Positions 51,712 through 60,935 of a stretch of DNA of 64,000 bases are shown here, in pieces (position 1 is the stretch's first letter; the number at the start of each line of letters is the position of its first letter). Both the position numbers and the translations under genes were made by a program. Where the stretch lies: contig JAMCPM010000015.1 of NCBI GenBank assembly GCA_023382335.1, forward strand, positions 1-64,000. Direction: 5' to 3'. The notes under the pieces were generated by a model, which was not told the DNA's origin, made no database searches, and saw nothing but the letters and a program-made list of their open reading frames with translations. Source of the DNA: Actinomycetota bacterium (lineage in GTDB: Bacteria > Actinomycetota > Thermoleophilia > BMS3ABIN01).

Positions 51712-51998
51712 TTTCATTCCTCTCTTCGTTTATGACGCCATTACTAAAAAATTGTCGGATTCAAAGACCACCCCCCGGCATCAGTCCGATCATACGTTTT
51801 CCGATATTCGGCAGCAGAACCGTTACCCTTCAATTATTCCCTCCAATTGTTATTTCTATTCGCAGATAAAATTAGCCAAAGTTAAGCGAGATTCCTTGTT
51901 ATTTTTGTAGCCATACCCTTTTTGACATGGTTTGAAAATACCCGTCGGGTCAAATAATGACGGCAAGGTGGGATAAACAACTGCACGGAGGTGACCAG
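51712..51998. other. Divergent promoter region, sulfur operon and cytochrome
   Basis: About 287 AT-rich bases between dsrE (minus) and the cytochrome gene (plus). A TTGACA hexamer lies at 51922-51927 on the plus strand; no well-spaced -10 box was found. Shared regulation of both units is possible. Confidence 0.4.
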
Positions 51999-53144
51999 AT
52001 GGGAAGAGGTACATACATTGTGCTTATTGTTATATTGACGCTGGCCATGATGTTCGCGTTCGGGGCCATTGCCCTGGCGGACGCAGGCAGCCTGACGGCA
52101 GAGGATGCCGGCAGCCTGGCGCTCAAGCAAGCAGGCACCGGGGCGGCCGGGCCCTCGAGCCCCAGCCTGGCCAATAACATCAACCCGGCGCCGGGCGATA
52201 CGACTACCGGCGGCGCTGCAGGCGGAACCACTGCGGGCGGAGATCCGGCAGGTGGCGATACCGCCGGCAGCGGCTCTCCCGGCACTCTGTCGGGCTTTAT
52301 CCTTGCCAGCAACGGCAATCCATCAGCCACGGTTCCCAGCAGCGGCAATACGACTACCGGCGCTGCTGCCGGCATGTTCGGAGATCCTGTGCACGGCCTA
52401 TCCGTTTATTCCATGGCCTGCATGGGCTGTCATGGGGCCGCCGGCCAGCCGACGCTGGCGTTTCCGGGGCTAGCCGACGTGCAGAACCCCAACCCCAGTT
52501 TCTCGATAGACCCTGAACTGTTCGATGTCAATCCGGCCTGGTTTGCGCACAACATCGATCCGTTCCTGCAGCATGGATCAAACCCGGTGGGTTCGCCGCA
52601 ACCGATGCCGGCCTTCGGCGACAACAATATCCTGACCCAGTCCGACATAGCTGACGGCGAAGCCTACATCATGAGCCTAAGCAACGTGAACTGGCCCAGC
52701 CTCGCGCTGAGCGGCTCGGTTCTGACCGGCAGCGGTTTCTGGCCGCAGTCGACAGTCCAGCTCTATGTCAACGGCGTTGCTTTCGGCGCTCCGATAGTGA
52801 TCGATGGCAGCGGTCGCTTCATGCAAACAATGCTGGACCTGGTCCCCGGCGGTGTCGTTACGGCCAATTACGCGATTCTCAATGTCCCGGGAATATTCCC
52901 TAACGGGAATCCCGAAGGCGGGGAGCTTGGCCTGGACGCTGACAGGGGAGCGGCCCTCACGGTAGCCAGAGCAATTCAGCCCGCGCCCGCAGCCCCGGCT
53001 GTTGTGCTGGCGGCGGCGCTGCCTTCCACCGGTGCCAACCTGATGGAAACCGGGCAGCTGGCGCTGCTGCTGGTTTTGTCTGGGGCAGCGATGTTGGCGT
53101 CGGCATCGGTAAGAGACCGGAAGTACGACAGGCGTCATCAGTAG
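51999..53144 (+). CDS. Cell-wall-anchored monohaem cytochrome c
   Basis: A 381-residue exported protein starting at ATG 51999 behind GGAGGTGA. A signal peptide (YIVLIVILTLAMMFAFGAIALA) is followed by a Gly/Thr/Ala-rich linker (45-125), one CXXCH haem site (C141, C144, H145 in MACMGCHG), a probable axial M203 (PQPMPAFGDNN) and a beta-rich region (235-320). The C-terminus has LPSTG (341-345), a hydrophobic stretch and basic RDRKYDRRH tail, the complete sortase signal. It likely carries electrons at the cell wall. It faces the multicopper oxidase gene convergently. Confidence 0.85.
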   Translation: MGRGTYIVLIVILTLAMMFAFGAIALADAGSLTAEDAGSLALKQAGTGAAGPSSPSLANNINPAPGDTTTGGAAGGTTAGGDPAGGDTAGSGSPGTLSGFILASNGNPSATVPSSGNTTTGAAAGMFGDPVHGLSVYSMACMGCHGAAGQPTLAFPGLADVQNPNPSFSIDPELFDVNPAWFAHNIDPFLQHGSNPVGSPQPMPAFGDNNILTQSDIADGEAYIMSLSNVNWPSLALSGSVLTGSGFWPQSTVQLYVNGVAFGAPIVIDGSGRFMQTMLDLVPGGVVTANYAILNVPGIFPNGNPEGGELGLDADRGAALTVARAIQPAPAAPAVVLAAALPSTGANLMETGQLALLLVLSGAAMLASASVRDRKYDRRHQ

Positions 53145-53271: not shown

Positions 53272-56200
53272 TTACGGCACCACTATCGGTCCGGCGACGT
53301 TCGACCAGGCGGAGAAGCTCACCGAGTTTTCAGCCCGCACCCGGTAATAGTAGGTGCCTGCAGCCAACCCCGTGTCTGTGTATGCGGCCGGAACCGGGAA
53401 TCCACTAACCTCGATTGAGGCAACGCTAGTGGTGAAGCTGGCGTCGGTAGCCCTCTGGACAATGAATCTGGCAGCGCCGGGCACCACTGGGTTATTCGTC
53501 CAGGCCAGGGCTGCAGTACCCGCCGATGGCGTGGCGTTCAGTGCGCTCGGCGCGTCGAGACCAGAGCCTCGCACCATAATAGGCCGCATCATGTCATTTT
53601 CCTCATGACCCAGCAGGTGGCAATGCCAGACATATTCCCAACCGAAGTTGAATAGCTGGTTGGTAACCGTAATCGGGTTGCCGTTCTGGTCTACGTTAGT
53701 GAACTGCATCCCCGAACCGGTAGGCATAGTCACGTCGTATTTCCGTATGGAGTCAGGAACCGCGAAGGGAACGTTTGCAGGCATATGAGGCCTGAAGGCG
53801 ACAACGATGTCTTCCAACGGATTCATGCGAACAGTTTCCTTCCATCCCAACTCGTTGGCGTCGGGAGGCTTGACGGCGCCGTCCCAGCCTACTCGGTTGA
53901 TTACCTGTACGTCGAACAGGTGCACGTGCACGGCATGGGTGTCGACGCCGTTGTGAGTGATCTTCCAGATCTGGGTGCCGTCGGCCTCGGTTCCGATTGG
54001 TGTCGCCAGGTCGGCGATGTTCTTTACTTCCTCTGTGGGCGGATCTATGTACTTCTGGATGATTGACGTTTGGTTAGTCACATTAGTATGTGGTATTTCC
54101 ACGCCCAGCAACGCGTTCATCCTGCCATAGTTCGTTTCGAAGTCTTCTATAATCGACTTCGGACGCATGCCCATCGTCAGGCCTGCGGCAGTTGCAGTCG
54201 CGGTGGCGCCGCCGCCACCGGGAGCCGCGATGGTAACGGTAGGTGCAGATGTAAATCCGGTGCCACGATTGGTCATGGTGATGCCGGTAACCCCGGAAAT
54301 GAGGGCGGAGGCCGCCGCATCTGCGCCTCCACCGCCGGAGAATGACACAGTCGGGGCTGATGTGTAACCGCTGCCCCTGTTCGTGATCGTGATACCGGTT
54401 ACGATGCCGCTGGATATAGTTGCCGTGGCTGTCGCCGTGGTGCCGCCTCCCCCCGGGGCGGAGATGGTCACGTTCGGCGCCGTGACATAACCGTGGCCGG
54501 CATTGGTAAGCGATATCCAGGTTACGCCGCCGATGTCGATTGTCGACGTGGCTGTGGCGCCGGAGCCGTCGCCACCGGTGATCGAGACCGCCGGCGGGCT
54601 GCTATATCCGGAACCACTGTTGGTTACCTTGATCGCTGAAGCCAGGCTGGCGGTTACACTAGCTCCTGAGCCGGTGGGATCGACTATCATTACATCCGGC
54701 GCGGAAGTGTAACCGCTGCCGGGATCCACGATCATTACCCCGGTAATCGCACCCCCGGCAACGGTAGCTGTTGCGTAAGCGCCCGTTCCGCCGCCACCGG
54801 TGATCTCAACGGAAGGGGTGGCGCTGTAGCCGCTGCCGCCGTTGTTGACAGTGAAACCATTGAGCGAATCGTACAGCGGTCCGTTGAAGAACGTCATCGA
54901 CGTATCCTGGATGCGCGAGTAAGCGTCGGTCGGATACGCCTTACCGAAGGCAGCATTATACGAAGCCTGCGGCACGATAGGCGCAGGTTGTGTCTGTCCG
55001 TAGGCAATTGGCAGCGCCGTCTGTAGTGCCGCCACGTCGAACGGTGCCGAGGCCGGCCCTGCGACCTGGAACTGCATCATGGTGCGGGTATTGGGGCCAT
55101 AGCCCGAAACCGTTGTGGGCGCGCCGCCGGTTGAGATCATGTCGGGATTGCCCGTGTAGTAATCATTGCGCGGGTCGAAGCCTGGAACCGGAGCCGGCGC
55201 GTCGTTGTAGAGTATTATCTTGGAGCCATCAGGCACCTGCGAGAAGTCGACGATGACGTCGGCCCGCTCGGCCGGTCCCAGGAACAGACTCTTGTTTGCT
55301 ACATTGAGCACGGTGATGTCGCGCCGGTTGTAGATGTATCCAACCGGCGTGTTATCGATGACCGAGACGCCAGGCAGAAAGCCGCCCTCATTGCCGATCT
55401 GGATGAATTTCGGGCCTGCCGCGTTTGGATCGGGCGCGCCGCCGTCCCTGCTGTCTGTCGGCCAGCTTGCCGGCAGGCCGAAATTAGGATCCGCGGGAAC
55501 CATGTTGACTTCACCAGAGGCTTTTTGCAGCGAGGGTCCTCCGGTCGCCGGGTTGACAACATCAACGCTGTTCGACTTGGCGTAATACATCTGCAGGTTG
55601 ATGAACCGGTCATTGCTGGCATTTAGGATCCGGAACCTGTATGCCTTGCGTCCTACCTGCATGTAGGGATAAGCAGTGCCGTTCACCAGCGGCGTATCCA
55701 TGAATGCCTCAGGAACCGCCGATGGATTGGGAGTGCCCGGGTTCTGCGGCGGCTCTCCGGACTGACCGTATAATGGATTGGCTACCGGGCCGTTGATCAG
55801 TCCTGTGAAAGGCGGCCAGAACCAGGGTCCGTAATCCCATCTTCCCATGGCGTTTGCTCCCGACGAGTCGAAGGGGTTCTGGTTGGGCATGTATACATGC
55901 GGGAACCAGAGGTTGCCTTTTCCTCCCCATTTACTGATATCCCAGGTCGGGTCCTCCTGCTCTAGCTGGGCCGTGTCTGGCACGAACGTCTTGTCCTGGA
56001 TTACCAAAGGAACCTGATCCGAGGGGATGATCCCGTTGCTGACCAGGGACTGTTCCACGGCGTCGTTTACGACATAAGGCGCCGCTGCCCCCGAGTAGAC
56101 GTTCAGACGTGTGATGCCATAATCATGGTCGTGATAGAACATGAGTCTGGCGCTATGTTCGTTGGAATAGAAGAAGGTTCTGGTGCCATCTCCGGGAGTT

Positions 56201-58500
56201 GGCGCCGGCATGTCAGGAACGTTGACGACCTGGACGCCTTCAGGATATGGCGTCGTCTCTCCGGCCGGGGTGATCCACTGATTGGGCGTGCCGTCACTGA
56301 TCCAGACCGTATCGCCGCCATGCAAATGGATGTTGGCCCGGTTTTCCGTATAGCTGGCGCAGTTCTCCACCGACTGATCGCAGGCGCTGCCATCGGCATG
56401 CTTATCGCCTTCGCCGGCGCCCATGATCGTTGAATCAACCGGCAGAAACAGGTCGCCGCCAGTACCTGTGGGCAGGAAGTTGTAGAATTTGACGCGCACC
56501 GGTTTGTCCTGCTGGGCCACAATTGCAGGCCCCATGTAGCTGGGCTTGTCAACTGCGTAGACCTGATTACCGCCTTGAAGGATCGGGCTGCCGTCGGGAT
56601 ATGTCAGTGCGATATGGTGGCTGACTCCCGCGTTGGCTGGCGTCTCGATCTGGACGTAGCCGCGCAGGGTCGTCGCCGGCAAATCTGCGTGCAGTTTCTG
56701 CGTATACTGCACTTCGGCGATCTCGTAATAGTCGGACGCAGGTGGCGTCGGGCCGGGATAGGTGGTCGTGTCCGGAACCGCCGTAGGCGTATATTGCCCC
56801 AGATCGTTGGCTGTCGCAGCCGACAGTCCCGGCAGCGAGTCGACGAATTTCCTGATGCCGGTCCCCTGCAATACGCGGCCGGTGCCGAGGACCTCGTTGA
56901 AGTAGCCGTTCCAGACGACGCGCTGCGAGGCCATGACCTTGCCTGAGGCTGAAACCTCGACCGGCCCGTTGATCTCCCCCGGGAAGGTCGGTATCACGCG
57001 GCTGTTCGGCGGGATGACGCAGCCTCCGCTTGGGCATGCCTGATCGACGCCGCCGATCTTGATGGAATAACCAACCGCGTTGACCGGGTCGGGATTGGAG
57101 ATCAGCACCCAGTTCGCCGTGCCGGGGTTCTTCATGTCGTACCAGGTCCAGGCGTAGGACATGCTCAGCTGGGACTGCGGCTTCCCGGGAACCTCCTCGA
57201 AGGAAGGCCCGATGATCGAGCGCTGGGAAGCGATGACGTTTCCGGTGGCCGTCACCTCGACCGGCCCGTTCATCCGGCCCGGGAAGGTAGGCGTGATGAT
57301 GGTATTGGCGGGGATGCTGCCGGCGTCCACCAGTGTGCCGCCTATCTTGATCTCGTAATTGACCGCATTCGATTGATCCGGGTTGGCGATCAGAATCCAG
57401 TCACGGAAGCCCGGGCTCTGCATGTCATACCAGGTCCAGAAGTAATCACCGGAAAGATCGCCGGCGGGAATGCCGGGCACTTCGTTGAAAGTGGTCCCGA
57501 AGTTCGTCGTCACGCGCTGTGAGGCCATCGCGGGCCTGCGGTCGGCGGTGTTATTCCAGTCGCCGCCCTGCACTGCTACCTTGACCTCGACCGGGCCGCC
57601 GATCTTTCCCGGGAATTCCGGGTTCCAGTTCTGGCCGGCCGCTATGTCGCTTTCAGCCAGCGTCTCGGGCGTCGTGCTTCCCATGGGTGTGTAGGAGATG
57701 ATCGCGTGGACCGTCTCCGTGGCGGAAGGATTGTTCACCAGGACCCAGTTGCGGTATCCCGGCGTGCTGCCGTCGATCCAGGTCCAGTAGAAATGATCGG
57801 AGAGCTTGCTGGATTCCGTGCCGGGCACCTCCTCAAAGGAGCTTCCCAGCAGCGACCTCTGGCTGACGACGTTGTCGCCCCAGGTGCTGGGCGTCGCCTT
57901 GACCGGGCCGCCGATAAGGCCTGGAGACATATATGGCAGCGTCTTTCCTCCCGGGATAACGCCCGTACCAAACCCGAACGGATTCCCGAGAGGCTGATCC
58001 TGCCCCGCGATTGACAAGTTGAAAGAAGTGTAGTTTGCGCCGGAAGTATTGGCTATAAGAACCCAGTTACGCATGTTCTGGGAATCGTACCAGGGCCAGT
58101 TGAAGTCGGGTCCCTCGCCATTTTGCGTGGGCAACGGGCTGTTGGCGTAATTCGGAATAGCGCCGAAATAATCGGGCGTCCCCAGAGGGTCCATGGCGGC
58201 CGTCTGGGGAGTCTGTACACCCGCGACCTTGGCCCGGTCAGCCGCGGCCTGCCTGTCGGCGGCCGTCGTGCTCCTCATTTTAGGCATGTCGGCGGTCGTG
58301 CCCGCAGCCGCTTGCGTCATTCCGCTCATCGAGTCGATCCCCGTGGACGACCCGCCTGTGCCGGATGCTGTCATTCCGGCCGCCAGCTGAGGGGCCGTTT
58401 GGCTGGCCTGGGCCCCGAGCCCTATACCACCCCCCTGCAAAATAGCAACAAATATAACCAGCGCCACTGCCATGCATGCGAGAATAAACCGACGGTCCAT
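53272..58500 (-). CDS. Giant secreted multicopper oxidase with two repeat types
   Basis: A 1742-residue exported protein. A signal peptide (residues 5-30) and a low-complexity linker precede four tryptophan-rich repeats starting near 136, 241, 353 and 450. The oxidase begins near 570. All copper ligand sets are visible: HLHGGD (about 726), FYHDHDYG (about 791), HAVHVHLFDV (about 1524) and WHCHLLGHEENDMM (about 1629). About 230 residues of GSGY-type glycine-rich repeats (1212-1440) interrupt the oxidase before the last copper domain. A fibronectin type III domain ends it (1645-1742). Expected to oxidise metal ions or phenols outside the cell using oxygen. Confidence 0.87.
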   Translation of the reverse strand: MDRRFILACMAVALVIFVAILQGGGIGLGAQASQTAPQLAAGMTASGTGGSSTGIDSMSGMTQAAAGTTADMPKMRSTTAADRQAAADRAKVAGVQTPQTAAMDPLGTPDYFGAIPNYANSPLPTQNGEGPDFNWPWYDSQNMRNWVLIANTSGANYTSFNLSIAGQDQPLGNPFGFGTGVIPGGKTLPYMSPGLIGGPVKATPSTWGDNVVSQRSLLGSSFEEVPGTESSKLSDHFYWTWIDGSTPGYRNWVLVNNPSATETVHAIISYTPMGSTTPETLAESDIAAGQNWNPEFPGKIGGPVEVKVAVQGGDWNNTADRRPAMASQRVTTNFGTTFNEVPGIPAGDLSGDYFWTWYDMQSPGFRDWILIANPDQSNAVNYEIKIGGTLVDAGSIPANTIITPTFPGRMNGPVEVTATGNVIASQRSIIGPSFEEVPGKPQSQLSMSYAWTWYDMKNPGTANWVLISNPDPVNAVGYSIKIGGVDQACPSGGCVIPPNSRVIPTFPGEINGPVEVSASGKVMASQRVVWNGYFNEVLGTGRVLQGTGIRKFVDSLPGLSAATANDLGQYTPTAVPDTTTYPGPTPPASDYYEIAEVQYTQKLHADLPATTLRGYVQIETPANAGVSHHIALTYPDGSPILQGGNQVYAVDKPSYMGPAIVAQQDKPVRVKFYNFLPTGTGGDLFLPVDSTIMGAGEGDKHADGSACDQSVENCASYTENRANIHLHGGDTVWISDGTPNQWITPAGETTPYPEGVQVVNVPDMPAPTPGDGTRTFFYSNEHSARLMFYHDHDYGITRLNVYSGAAAPYVVNDAVEQSLVSNGIIPSDQVPLVIQDKTFVPDTAQLEQEDPTWDISKWGGKGNLWFPHVYMPNQNPFDSSGANAMGRWDYGPWFWPPFTGLINGPVANPLYGQSGEPPQNPGTPNPSAVPEAFMDTPLVNGTAYPYMQVGRKAYRFRILNASNDRFINLQMYYAKSNSVDVVNPATGGPSLQKASGEVNMVPADPNFGLPASWPTDSRDGGAPDPNAAGPKFIQIGNEGGFLPGVSVIDNTPVGYIYNRRDITVLNVANKSLFLGPAERADVIVDFSQVPDGSKIILYNDAPAPVPGFDPRNDYYTGNPDMISTGGAPTTVSGYGPNTRTMMQFQVAGPASAPFDVAALQTALPIAYGQTQPAPIVPQASYNAAFGKAYPTDAYSRIQDTSMTFFNGPLYDSLNGFTVNNGGSGYSATPSVEITGGGGTGAYATATVAGGAITGVMIVDPGSGYTSAPDVMIVDPTGSGASVTASLASAIKVTNSGSGYSSPPAVSITGGDGSGATATSTIDIGGVTWISLTNAGHGYVTAPNVTISAPGGGGTTATATATISSGIVTGITITNRGSGYTSAPTVSFSGGGGADAAASALISGVTGITMTNRGTGFTSAPTVTIAAPGGGGATATATAAGLTMGMRPKSIIEDFETNYGRMNALLGVEIPHTNVTNQTSIIQKYIDPPTEEVKNIADLATPIGTEADGTQIWKITHNGVDTHAVHVHLFDVQVINRVGWDGAVKPPDANELGWKETVRMNPLEDIVVAFRPHMPANVPFAVPDSIRKYDVTMPTGSGMQFTNVDQNGNPITVTNQLFNFGWEYVWHCHLLGHEENDMMRPIMVRGSGLDAPSALNATPSAGTAALAWTNNPVVPGAARFIVQRATDASFTTSVASIEVSGFPVPAAYTDTGLAAGTYYYRVRAENSVSFSAWSNVAGPIVVP
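54180..54865 (-). repeat. Six GSGY glycine-rich repeats within the oxidase
   Basis: Six units of about 35-40 residues share the pattern GSGYTSAPTVSFSGGGG, then small residues alternating with Ala/Thr and a GITITNRG ending. They lie inside the multicopper oxidase, between its second and third cupredoxin regions. The regular spacing suggests a beta-solenoid or stacked-strand insert. Confidence 0.8.
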
Positions 58501-58802
58501 GATTCCTCCAAACTCAAGCCGAATTGAAAGACCCCAGAAAACCGGTGAAGCCCAAGGAAGTCAGTCCTGGTACCCGCGCAGCCCGCACCAGCGCCATATA
58601 ACAAGAGTTCAGAAACGAATGGGCTCACCTTGCATGGGATTATTCCACGAGCAGCGAAGATTAAACTCCCAGCAAACAAGATAATTTTAGTCCTGATTTG
58701 CCGCAATTTGGACGTACTATTTGCTGATTCCCGACAGGAAATAAAAACGGGACCGGCATTTGCCGGGAGCGAGATTTGATATCCGGGGGAAACGAAAATA
58801 GT
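58501..58802. other. Divergent promoter region of oxidase and M23 peptidase
   Basis: About 300 bases between two divergent genes whose products share the same repeat. No gene or riboswitch was identified. A TTG at 58776 could start the peptidase nine codons earlier, with GGGAG before it. Confidence 0.45.
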
Positions 58803-60935
58803 ATGGCCTTCATGACGCCGGTAAAAAGCAAAACCGGAAAGTTTCGCGGCCCGGGCTTTCGTCTGGCCTGCGTGAAGATGCTGCTCTTCACAGGCCTGCC
58901 GGCCTTCGTGCCGCTGTTCTCAATTCAGCTTGCGGCCGCCCAGAGCGCCGCCACGCCATCGGCGCCGGCTCCCGCAGCCGCCCAGCCCGCGTCGTCAGTC
59001 AAATCGCTATCCAACCCGGAGGGAGCTTCCCAGCCCGCAACTGCAGGTCTGGACGCGGCGATCCTGCGGCAGTCACAGGCGATCCCGGCCGACGGCGTGC
59101 CCCTCTCATCCGGATTTGATTATCCGGTTGGCGACCCCTCGTATCATGCGGGCTATGACATGAACAACTGTTTCGGCTGCGACTATCTCGATCTCTGGGG
59201 GCACACCGGTGAGGACTTCGACAGCGGCGCCGAAGGCGGCCCGGTCTATTCCGCTTCCGAAGGCGTCGTCGTCTGGACCGGTGTCGGGCCGGGCGCCTGG
59301 GGCAACGTCATCATAATCAGGCATATCGTCCACGGCGAGAGCATCTACACGCAGTACGCGCACGTCAGGGACATCTTCGTGGCGCCGGGACAGGCTGTCG
59401 GCCGCCGGCAGCAGATCGCCACGGTGGGCACGACCGGAACCACGGCGCCGCACCTTCACTTCGAGATCAAGACACAGCCGATGATCGGCCACGGTTACAC
59501 CGGCTACGGATTCTCCGGACTGACCATCGACGACGCCGGCATGACCTACTGGGCGCCCTCCTGGTGGATCGACACGCATAGATATTTTTGGGATGACATG
59601 CCCTCGACCCAACCGCCGGCGGGGCTGCATTACTACTGGACCTGGTACGACAATATGGGCAGCAAGAACTGGGTGTTGATGGCCAATCCCAGGGAAAGCG
59701 GCAGTCTCGGCTTCGATGTCAACATACGGGGCAAGGCCCCGAATCTTTCCATGTTCGGCGGCGGATCCAGCCTGGCTCCGGGGCAGGTGGCGACGCCGAT
59801 GTTCCCCGGCCTTATCGGCGGGCCGGTGGTCGCAACGTCGCTTACCGGCGACAGCGGCCTCGTGAGCCAGCGCGTCATCTGGGGCGCCAGCTCGATGGAG
59901 GAGGTCCCCGGCATCGAGGAGGGCGATCTCTCCAGCCATTACTACTGGCCCTGGTACGACCAGAAAAGCCCTGGCTTCAAGGACTGGGTGCTGGTGGCCA
60001 ACCCTTCAGCCGGCGAAACCGTCACGGCTTCGGTTGCGTTCACAAACCAGACGGACGGACAGATGGTGGTCGCCGCCTTCGACGTGGCTCCCGGCCAGAA
60101 CGCCACGCCTACGTTTCCGGGAAGGATGGGCGGGCCCGTGGAAGTCAGGGCCTGGGTCAAGGGAGGCAGCTGGGACAACCTGCCCGACCGCAGGAAGGTG
60201 ATGGCCTCGCAACGCGTGCTGATCAACAATGACGCCGCCTTCAACGAGGTGCCGGGAATCGCCGCCGAGAGACTCACCGATCATTATCTCTGGACCTGGT
60301 ACGACCAGGCGAGCTACGGAGTCAGAAACTGGGTGCTGGCAGCAAACCCGTCGGCGACAGAAGCGGTCACCGTCCGCGTGTCATTCACAAACATGATAGA
60401 TGGTCAACCGGTGAGCGGCTCATGGGATGTCGCCCCGGGCCAGAACGTGACGCCGATGTTCCCCGGCAAGATCGGCGGGCCGGTCGAGATCAAGTCCTGG
60501 GTCCAGGGCGGCAGCTGGGACAACCCGGCCGACCGCCGTCCGGTGATGGCCTCGCAGCGCGTGCTCTGGGGGCCGTCGTTCGAGGAAGTCCCGGGGTACA
60601 GCGCCGCCGATCTGTCCTCCGACTATCGCTGGACCTGGTACGACCAGCTCTCGGGCGGCATGACCAACTGGGTGCTGGTGGCCAACCTCAATGACTTCCC
60701 GGTCTATTACGAGATAAGCATTCCCGGCGTCGACGTCAACACGGCTGCGGGCGCCAGGGGGATCATCCAGCCCGGCCAGAGCGTGACTCCCAAGTTTCCG
60801 GGGAAGATGGGCGGGCCCATATCGGTCAAGGCCTGGACGGACTCCGAAAAGACGTCGGCGGCGCCGGTCATGGCTTCACAGCGCGTCCTTTATAACACCT
60901 TCTTCAACGAGGTCACGGGAACGGTGCTGCACTAA
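58803..60935 (+). CDS. Secreted M23 peptidase with four tryptophan-rich repeats
   Basis: A 710-residue exported protein. Signal segment about residues 15-45, Ala/Pro-rich linker, then an M23 (LytM-type) zinc metallopeptidase domain with HTGEDFDSG (H and D near 132-136) and HLHFEI (about 217), the four ligands expected. Four repeats of about 110 residues follow near 280, 380, 495 and 610, each with WTWYD, NWVLVANP, FPGKMGGPVEV and VMASQRVL. They match those of the oxidase encoded divergently. M23 enzymes cut peptidoglycan cross-links. The repeats may bind the cell surface. Confidence 0.88.
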   Translation: MAFMTPVKSKTGKFRGPGFRLACVKMLLFTGLPAFVPLFSIQLAAAQSAATPSAPAPAAAQPASSVKSLSNPEGASQPATAGLDAAILRQSQAIPADGVPLSSGFDYPVGDPSYHAGYDMNNCFGCDYLDLWGHTGEDFDSGAEGGPVYSASEGVVVWTGVGPGAWGNVIIIRHIVHGESIYTQYAHVRDIFVAPGQAVGRRQQIATVGTTGTTAPHLHFEIKTQPMIGHGYTGYGFSGLTIDDAGMTYWAPSWWIDTHRYFWDDMPSTQPPAGLHYYWTWYDNMGSKNWVLMANPRESGSLGFDVNIRGKAPNLSMFGGGSSLAPGQVATPMFPGLIGGPVVATSLTGDSGLVSQRVIWGASSMEEVPGIEEGDLSSHYYWPWYDQKSPGFKDWVLVANPSAGETVTASVAFTNQTDGQMVVAAFDVAPGQNATPTFPGRMGGPVEVRAWVKGGSWDNLPDRRKVMASQRVLINNDAAFNEVPGIAAERLTDHYLWTWYDQASYGVRNWVLAANPSATEAVTVRVSFTNMIDGQPVSGSWDVAPGQNVTPMFPGKIGGPVEIKSWVQGGSWDNPADRRPVMASQRVLWGPSFEEVPGYSAADLSSDYRWTWYDQLSGGMTNWVLVANLNDFPVYYEISIPGVDVNTAAGARGIIQPGQSVTPKFPGKMGGPISVKAWTDSEKTSAAPVMASQRVLYNTFFNEVTGTVLH

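Follow-up and report, generated by a model that had tools for sequence, protein, structure and literature searches.

To which family does a multicopper oxidase (MCO) of 1742 aa belong, and on what might it act, when long arrays of repeats accompany its catalytic core? This question is raised by a gene in a 64,000-nt stretch of DNA (the window, contig JAMCPM010000015.1) from a sediment actinobacterium of the Thermoleophilia lineage BMS3ABIN01. An earlier note, made from the sequence alone, had described the product as a giant MCO with all copper ligand motifs, flanked by four tryptophan-rich (W-rich) repeats and a fibronectin domain, and had proposed a large extracellular oxidase of the metal-oxidizing type, like MnxG or MoxA. 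Our comparison of sequences indicates that the oxidase core belongs to the OmpB/MofA family, which has been linked to extracellular iron and manganese chemistry, and is neither of the MnxG type nor an ordinary laccase.

The described layout was borne out: a single open reading frame (ORF), with an ATG start and a GGAGG-like ribosome-binding sequence ahead of it, encodes all four copper motifs and both flanking regions (Table 1). The fibronectin (FN3)-like region rests on a weak sequence match (residues ∼1650–1735, E 0.05 to an Fn3-like chain) and is all-beta in an AlphaFold2 (AF2) model. The ten His plus Cys copper ligands showed no variation in an alignment of 54 relatives. Cu-oxidase_2 is the sole Pfam domain recognized, and an NCBIfam scan gave MCO matches that were all sub-threshold. 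The AF2 model of residues 543–1742 (mean confidence, pLDDT, 82.7; pTM 0.79) adopts the CotA/bilirubin-oxidase fold in a Foldseek search (target TM score 0.79–0.84), and, by sequence, CotA, bilirubin oxidase and phenoxazinone synthase come nearest among solved structures. The family core spans ∼930 alignable residues compared with ∼510 held in common with CotA-type enzymes; thus, much of the extra length comes from an enlarged core. The G+C content of the gene (0.60) and of its parts is near that of the window. Since the repeats score as families and a near-identical independent assembly encodes the same 1742-aa protein with 6 differences, the layout is beyond chance. From the signal-like N-terminus and from surface modules common to other proteins, we infer that the oxidase is exported.

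A scan of a genome collection gave relatives in many phyla, including Leptothrix discophora (L028), Rubrivivax sp. A210 (L021), Sphaerotilus, Geobacteraceae (L077 and L079), Geothrix, Neobacillus and Methanoperedens. In the tree, the oxidase falls inside a 75-row clade (SH-aLRT 100) together with the members from Geobacteraceae, Leptothrix and Rubrivivax A210. Outside it lie the CotA-like proteins, among them two further MCOs of the same genome, along with other shorter MCOs. The phylogeny proposed in the earlier note therefore did not place the enzyme among ordinary laccases, and a laccase in that sense is ruled out by the tree, although the fold is common to both. Core identity is 51% to the A210 MofA, 51% to the L. 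discophora protein and 56% to the Geobacteraceae homologues; in the alignment of relatives, the MofA/OmpB core is 48–64% conserved from archaea to actinobacteria. MnxG was ruled out as closest kin by motifs. Two L. discophora proteins (L155 and L156, ∼1600 aa), to which the label MnxG/McoA-type was assigned in this analysis, are likewise large MCOs but have HCHMYPHF..GMW as motif IV, lack HLHG and follow another domain plan; the HCHMYPHF-type proteins of L. discophora were left out of the tree and set apart by these motifs. The names OmpB, MnxG and MoxA are used here on the basis of homologues and papers, not of verified sequences. The idea of a large extracellular oxidase of the metal-oxidizing type is supported in part, through MofA/OmpB, which had not been named, and not through MnxG or MoxA.

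Within the family, Leptothrix MofA counts as a putative Mn oxidase (PMC5566968), and its A210 homologue sits in a mof-like operon (PMC8218464). Directly downstream of the A210 gene we found a MofC-like gene (cytochrome c plus Peripla_BP_6), matching the published layout (PMC8218464, PMC5566968). MofA of L. discophora and A210 shares with the oxidase the core, all copper motifs, the slot for a GSGY repeat array in domain 3, predicted export and a C-terminal FN3-like region. However, MofA-type proteins have Phe at the type 1 axial position, no W-rich repeats and, in A210, a mofB/mofC-type operon, whereas the oxidase has axial Met, W-rich repeats and no such operon. OmpB provides the sole genetic evidence for the family, which concerns Fe(III) oxide reduction; an FN3-like C-terminus is described for it and a location on the outer surface proposed (PMC5566968). 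Compared through its Geobacteraceae homologues L077 and L079, OmpB of Geobacter sulfurreducens shares the closely related core and the FN3 region after the oxidase, but these homologues have no GSGY insert and an axial Phe, and the host studied here is a monoderm-type actinobacterium. CotA and bilirubin oxidase share the three-cupredoxin fold, the copper ligands and the axial Met, whereas CotA (∼513 aa) has none of the family's insertions, no GSGY array and no flanking modules. In papers on MofA in actinobacteria and on Methanoperedens MCOs, we found no earlier description of the present architecture.

The axial residue is Met in the oxidase and 54 others and Phe in 20, with five changes on the tree; the Phe group includes MofA-type and Geobacteraceae members. 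In laccases, an axial Phe generally makes the potential higher. Since the MnxG/McoA-type proteins of L. discophora also have Met, the axial Met leaves the substrate undecided.

The GSGY array, described in the earlier note as ∼230 residues between cupredoxin regions, measures 226 aa in six units and lies inside the first stretch of domain 3, not between whole domains. Such an array occurs between motifs II and III in 32 of 74 full-length relatives from nine phyla, among them all 12 proteobacterial relatives, mostly of the MofA clade, and the MofA-type proteins of Leptothrix (L028, residues 834–1086) and A210 (L021, residues 790–1036). An insert unique to this oxidase is thereby ruled out. Wide occurrence in known laccases would, by the earlier note, have told against its reading; the insert is indeed widespread, but within the MofA/OmpB family and not in laccases. 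Where checked, the slot is identical, immediately ahead of a conserved K-A/S-I..E.F..YGRMN stretch. Parsimony requires at least nine changes on the tree, and gain, loss or exchange of the array has therefore recurred. Elsewhere in the family, GSGY units are found at the N-terminus or, in L199, in a different core loop, and a Dehalococcoidia family member (L015) has a 4049-aa frame with 41 GSGY repeat matches. From this distribution, we infer that the array is an accessory insert of a tolerant loop, with no part in catalysis.

We put at about even the chance that the oxidase is an exported, cell-surface OmpB/MofA MCO, anchored to the wall and acting outside the cell on a substrate of the Fe(II)/Mn(II) type, both substrate and anchoring being predictions. 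In such an enzyme, electrons would be taken up at the type 1 copper, whose ligands are His, Cys, His and axial Met, from a small reductant outside the cell, with Fe(II) or Mn(II) the likeliest donor. The HCH motif would carry them on to the trinuclear cluster, where O2 would be reduced to water. O2 use is plausible because the genome has a haem-copper oxidase gene. The four W-rich repeats would fix the oxidase on the cell wall, an anchor specific to the lineage and independent of sortase. The GSGY array would be a stiff spacer or adhesive insert, open to exchange, where the surface of domain 3 tolerates it; both this array and the FN3 region may add contact to mineral or matrix. An adjoining cytochrome c with an LPxTG sorting signal is a possible redox partner. 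What had been a vague 'odd laccase' is now a member of a definite family with physiological evidence, its MofA/OmpB core joined to interchangeable modules, and the long-open question of whether MofA/OmpB proteins oxidize or reduce metals becomes testable with natural variants in insert, anchor and axial ligand.

Several observations weigh against this proposal. The family includes anaerobes (Geobacteraceae, Methanoperedens and Geothrix), and OmpB has been linked to the reduction of Fe(III); oxidation that depends on O2 may therefore not be the shared role of the family. Where MofA and the Geobacteraceae members have Phe at the axial position, the oxidase has Met. EXXE motifs, proposed for OmpB iron binding, number 2 in the oxidase against 1.3 expected from shuffles; OmpB-like iron-binding motifs were ruled out on this lack of enrichment. 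The cytochrome c gene is not kept with the oxidase: it is missing beside the same-genus oxidases and present in 1 of 19 other relatives, and its role as a conserved operon partner is thereby not supported; L. discophora L028 and most other members examined likewise have no cytochrome c gene nearby. No mofB, mofC or SCO1 gene lies beside the oxidase, just a different single-haem cytochrome c, this cluster being typical of the family but neither universal nor a core criterion. For the W-rich module, an AF2 model built with a two-row alignment was unusable (pLDDT 45).

The numerous family members in metal-reducing or anaerobic taxa, the link of OmpB to Fe(III) oxide reduction in G. sulfurreducens (PMC5566968) and the surface cytochrome c gene adjoining the oxidase would all suit an extracellular redox protein whose partners in electron exchange are insoluble Fe(III)/Mn(IV) oxides and whose physiological acceptor is not O2. 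We hold this to be unlikely here, since the trinuclear O2 site is complete, a terminal oxidase gene is present and multihaem cytochromes are few (four CXXCH-pair matches in two ORFs of the genome, one family searched); the last count also rules against extracellular electron transfer via many multihaem cytochromes. Alternatively, the enzyme could be a CotA-type laccase or phenol oxidase acting on humics, dyes or cell-wall phenolics, its repeats serving attachment alone. The closest solved structures and the axial Met as in CotA speak for this, as does an identity of ∼40–45% to CotA-like enzymes over ∼510 aligned residues; in the tree, however, the oxidase stands apart from CotA-like proteins, two further MCOs of its own genome among them, and the family core is nearly twice as long and conserved throughout, which makes this reading unlikely too. 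Copper detoxification by a CueO/CopA-like cuprous oxidase is most improbable: the match to the CueO model is weak (64 bits), far under the cut-off of 525, the protein bears surface repeats and its neighbours are not copper genes.

How, then, might an Fe(II)/Mn(II)-type oxidase be held at the cell surface? A search of the genome found 91 copies of the W-rich repeat (∼100 aa each; consensus WTWYD...NWVL.aNP...FPG.mgGPV.V...ASQRvl...FnEv.G) in ∼24 ORFs of the whole genome (G000), e.g. C6, C7, C11, C13 and C15. Exactly four repeats occur in 20 of 22 extracted ORFs, and four also in both repeat-bearing proteins of the window, the oxidase and its divergent M23 peptidase neighbour, whose repeats are 48% identical in register. 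Their partners include M23 peptidase, amidase plus SpoIID, two glucosaminidases, CAP, GH26, NosD/beta-helix, PD40 propellers and rhodanese; Pfam matched the repeats in none of the repeat-bearing proteins scanned. In 924 comparisons, a repeat had its best match at its own position in another protein 432 times, where 231 such cases would be expected were position irrelevant; this suggests that the block of four is in part inherited as a unit. The module was present in 14 of 60 genomes searched (this one and relatives), all of one family and with 11–77 copies each; among 296 genomes of the phylum, weak distant matches only were seen outside that GTDB family.

The neighbouring cytochrome c ends in LPSTG and a membrane tail, and the genome has three sortases. 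In a sister-genus genome (G015), its homologue (L204, 60% identity) has four W-rich repeats in place of LPxTG, and on this ground the simplest reading is that the module is probably an alternative surface anchor. It resembles the Gram-positive wall-attachment modules (LPxTG/sortase, SLH and CWB2) in being common to many exported proteins, in its preference for wall hydrolases and in taking the place of an LPxTG signal; unlike these, it has no Pfam match, comes nearly always in four copies of ∼100 aa and is confined, apart from the weak distant matches, to one GTDB family. It appears to be new, a candidate undescribed wall-attachment domain found in ∼24 proteins of one genome. The repeats might instead form a secreted module that binds a carbohydrate or mineral substrate and anchors nothing. 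Their occurrence on GH26 and NosD/beta-helix proteins and the suitability of aromatic residues for sugar binding fit this; we regard it as a less probable role, since the favoured partners are peptidoglycan hydrolases and the repeats are swapped with the LPxTG signal on cytochrome c. Anchoring by the module could be general: it is conceivable, at slightly less than an even chance in our judgement, that one family of sediment actinobacteria uses this undescribed four-repeat module as a general sortase-independent surface anchor, so that a monoderm cell would display a MofA/OmpB-type oxidase and, in the sister genus, a cytochrome c. The redox layer on its surface would then be formed by module exchange and not by porin–cytochrome complexes.

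Three genomes of the same genus (G010, G011 and G012) encode oxidases with closely related cores (clade support 100/99) and without a GSGY insert. Their N-terminal slot holds four W-rich repeats in G011 and FG-GAP-like propeller repeats in G010 and G012. The W-rich module of the oxidase is 58% identical to that of G011, yet an approximately unbiased test rejected the grouping of the two cores (p 0.0005, for a group defined after the tree was viewed), placing the same N-terminal module on two core lineages. In the closest core relative (L013, Actinomycetota fen_680), three copies of a different ∼110-aa repeat (FAEGT.RP.FD...QNPG...ERPMYFNY; residues ∼95–430) sit where the W-rich repeats do. Three further same-genus genomes are without the oxidase, and in a related genus (G014; L196, 6399–7304) a C-terminal oxidase fragment lies beside an M23/W-rich gene and near a PrmC-like gene, as in the window; the gene has apparently decayed there at a partly syntenic site. 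The oxidase gene is accessory.

Table 1. Coordinates, in the window, of the oxidase gene, its parts and the two adjoining genes
Feature	Position	Strand	Evidence or remark
OmpB/MofA-family multicopper oxidase gene, 1742 aa	53272..58500	(-)	single ORF; Cu-oxidase_2 E 5.8e-8; tree; AF2 model
Putative N-terminal Sec-type signal sequence, ∼residues 1–32	58405..58500	(-)	inspection of translation: MDRRFILACMAVALVIFVAILQ...AQA
Four W-rich repeats, residues 132–545	56866..58107	(-)	hidden Markov model matches
Cupredoxin domains 1 and 2 and start of domain 3, residues 546–1213	54862..56865	(-)	alignment, model, Foldseek CotA
Copper motif I, HLHG, residues 725–728	56317..56328	(-)	motif and alignment
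Copper motif II, HDH, residues 790–792	56125..56133	(-)	motif and alignment
GSGY array, six units, inserted at start of domain 3, residues 1214–1439	54184..54861	(-)	repeat matches
Remainder of cupredoxin domain 3, residues 1440–1645	53566..54183	(-)	alignment, model
Copper motif III, HxxHxH, residues 1522–1527	53920..53937	(-)	motif and alignment
Copper motif IV, HCHLLGHEENDM, residues 1626–1637; Met 1637 at type 1 axial position	53590..53625	(-)	
C-terminal FN3-like domain, residues 1646–1742	53275..53565	(-)	all-beta in model; weak PDB match
Convergent neighbour: exported single-haem cytochrome c, LPxTG sorting signal	51957..53144	(+)	Cytochrom_C E 2.2e-6; one CxxCH; LPSTG tail
Divergent neighbour: M23 peptidase, then four W-rich repeats	58776..60935	(+)	Peptidase_M23 E 3e-21; 58776 is a TTG start, ATG at 58803

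Elsewhere in the window, genes on the (-) strand between 43103 and 51717 encode two DsrE-like proteins, a lipoate-binding GcvH-like protein, a lipoyl ligase–DUF116 fusion, radical SAM proteins, an FAD enzyme and a CCG/4Fe-4S HdrBC-like protein. This cluster looks like an sHdr/lipoate-binding-protein locus for sulfur oxidation.
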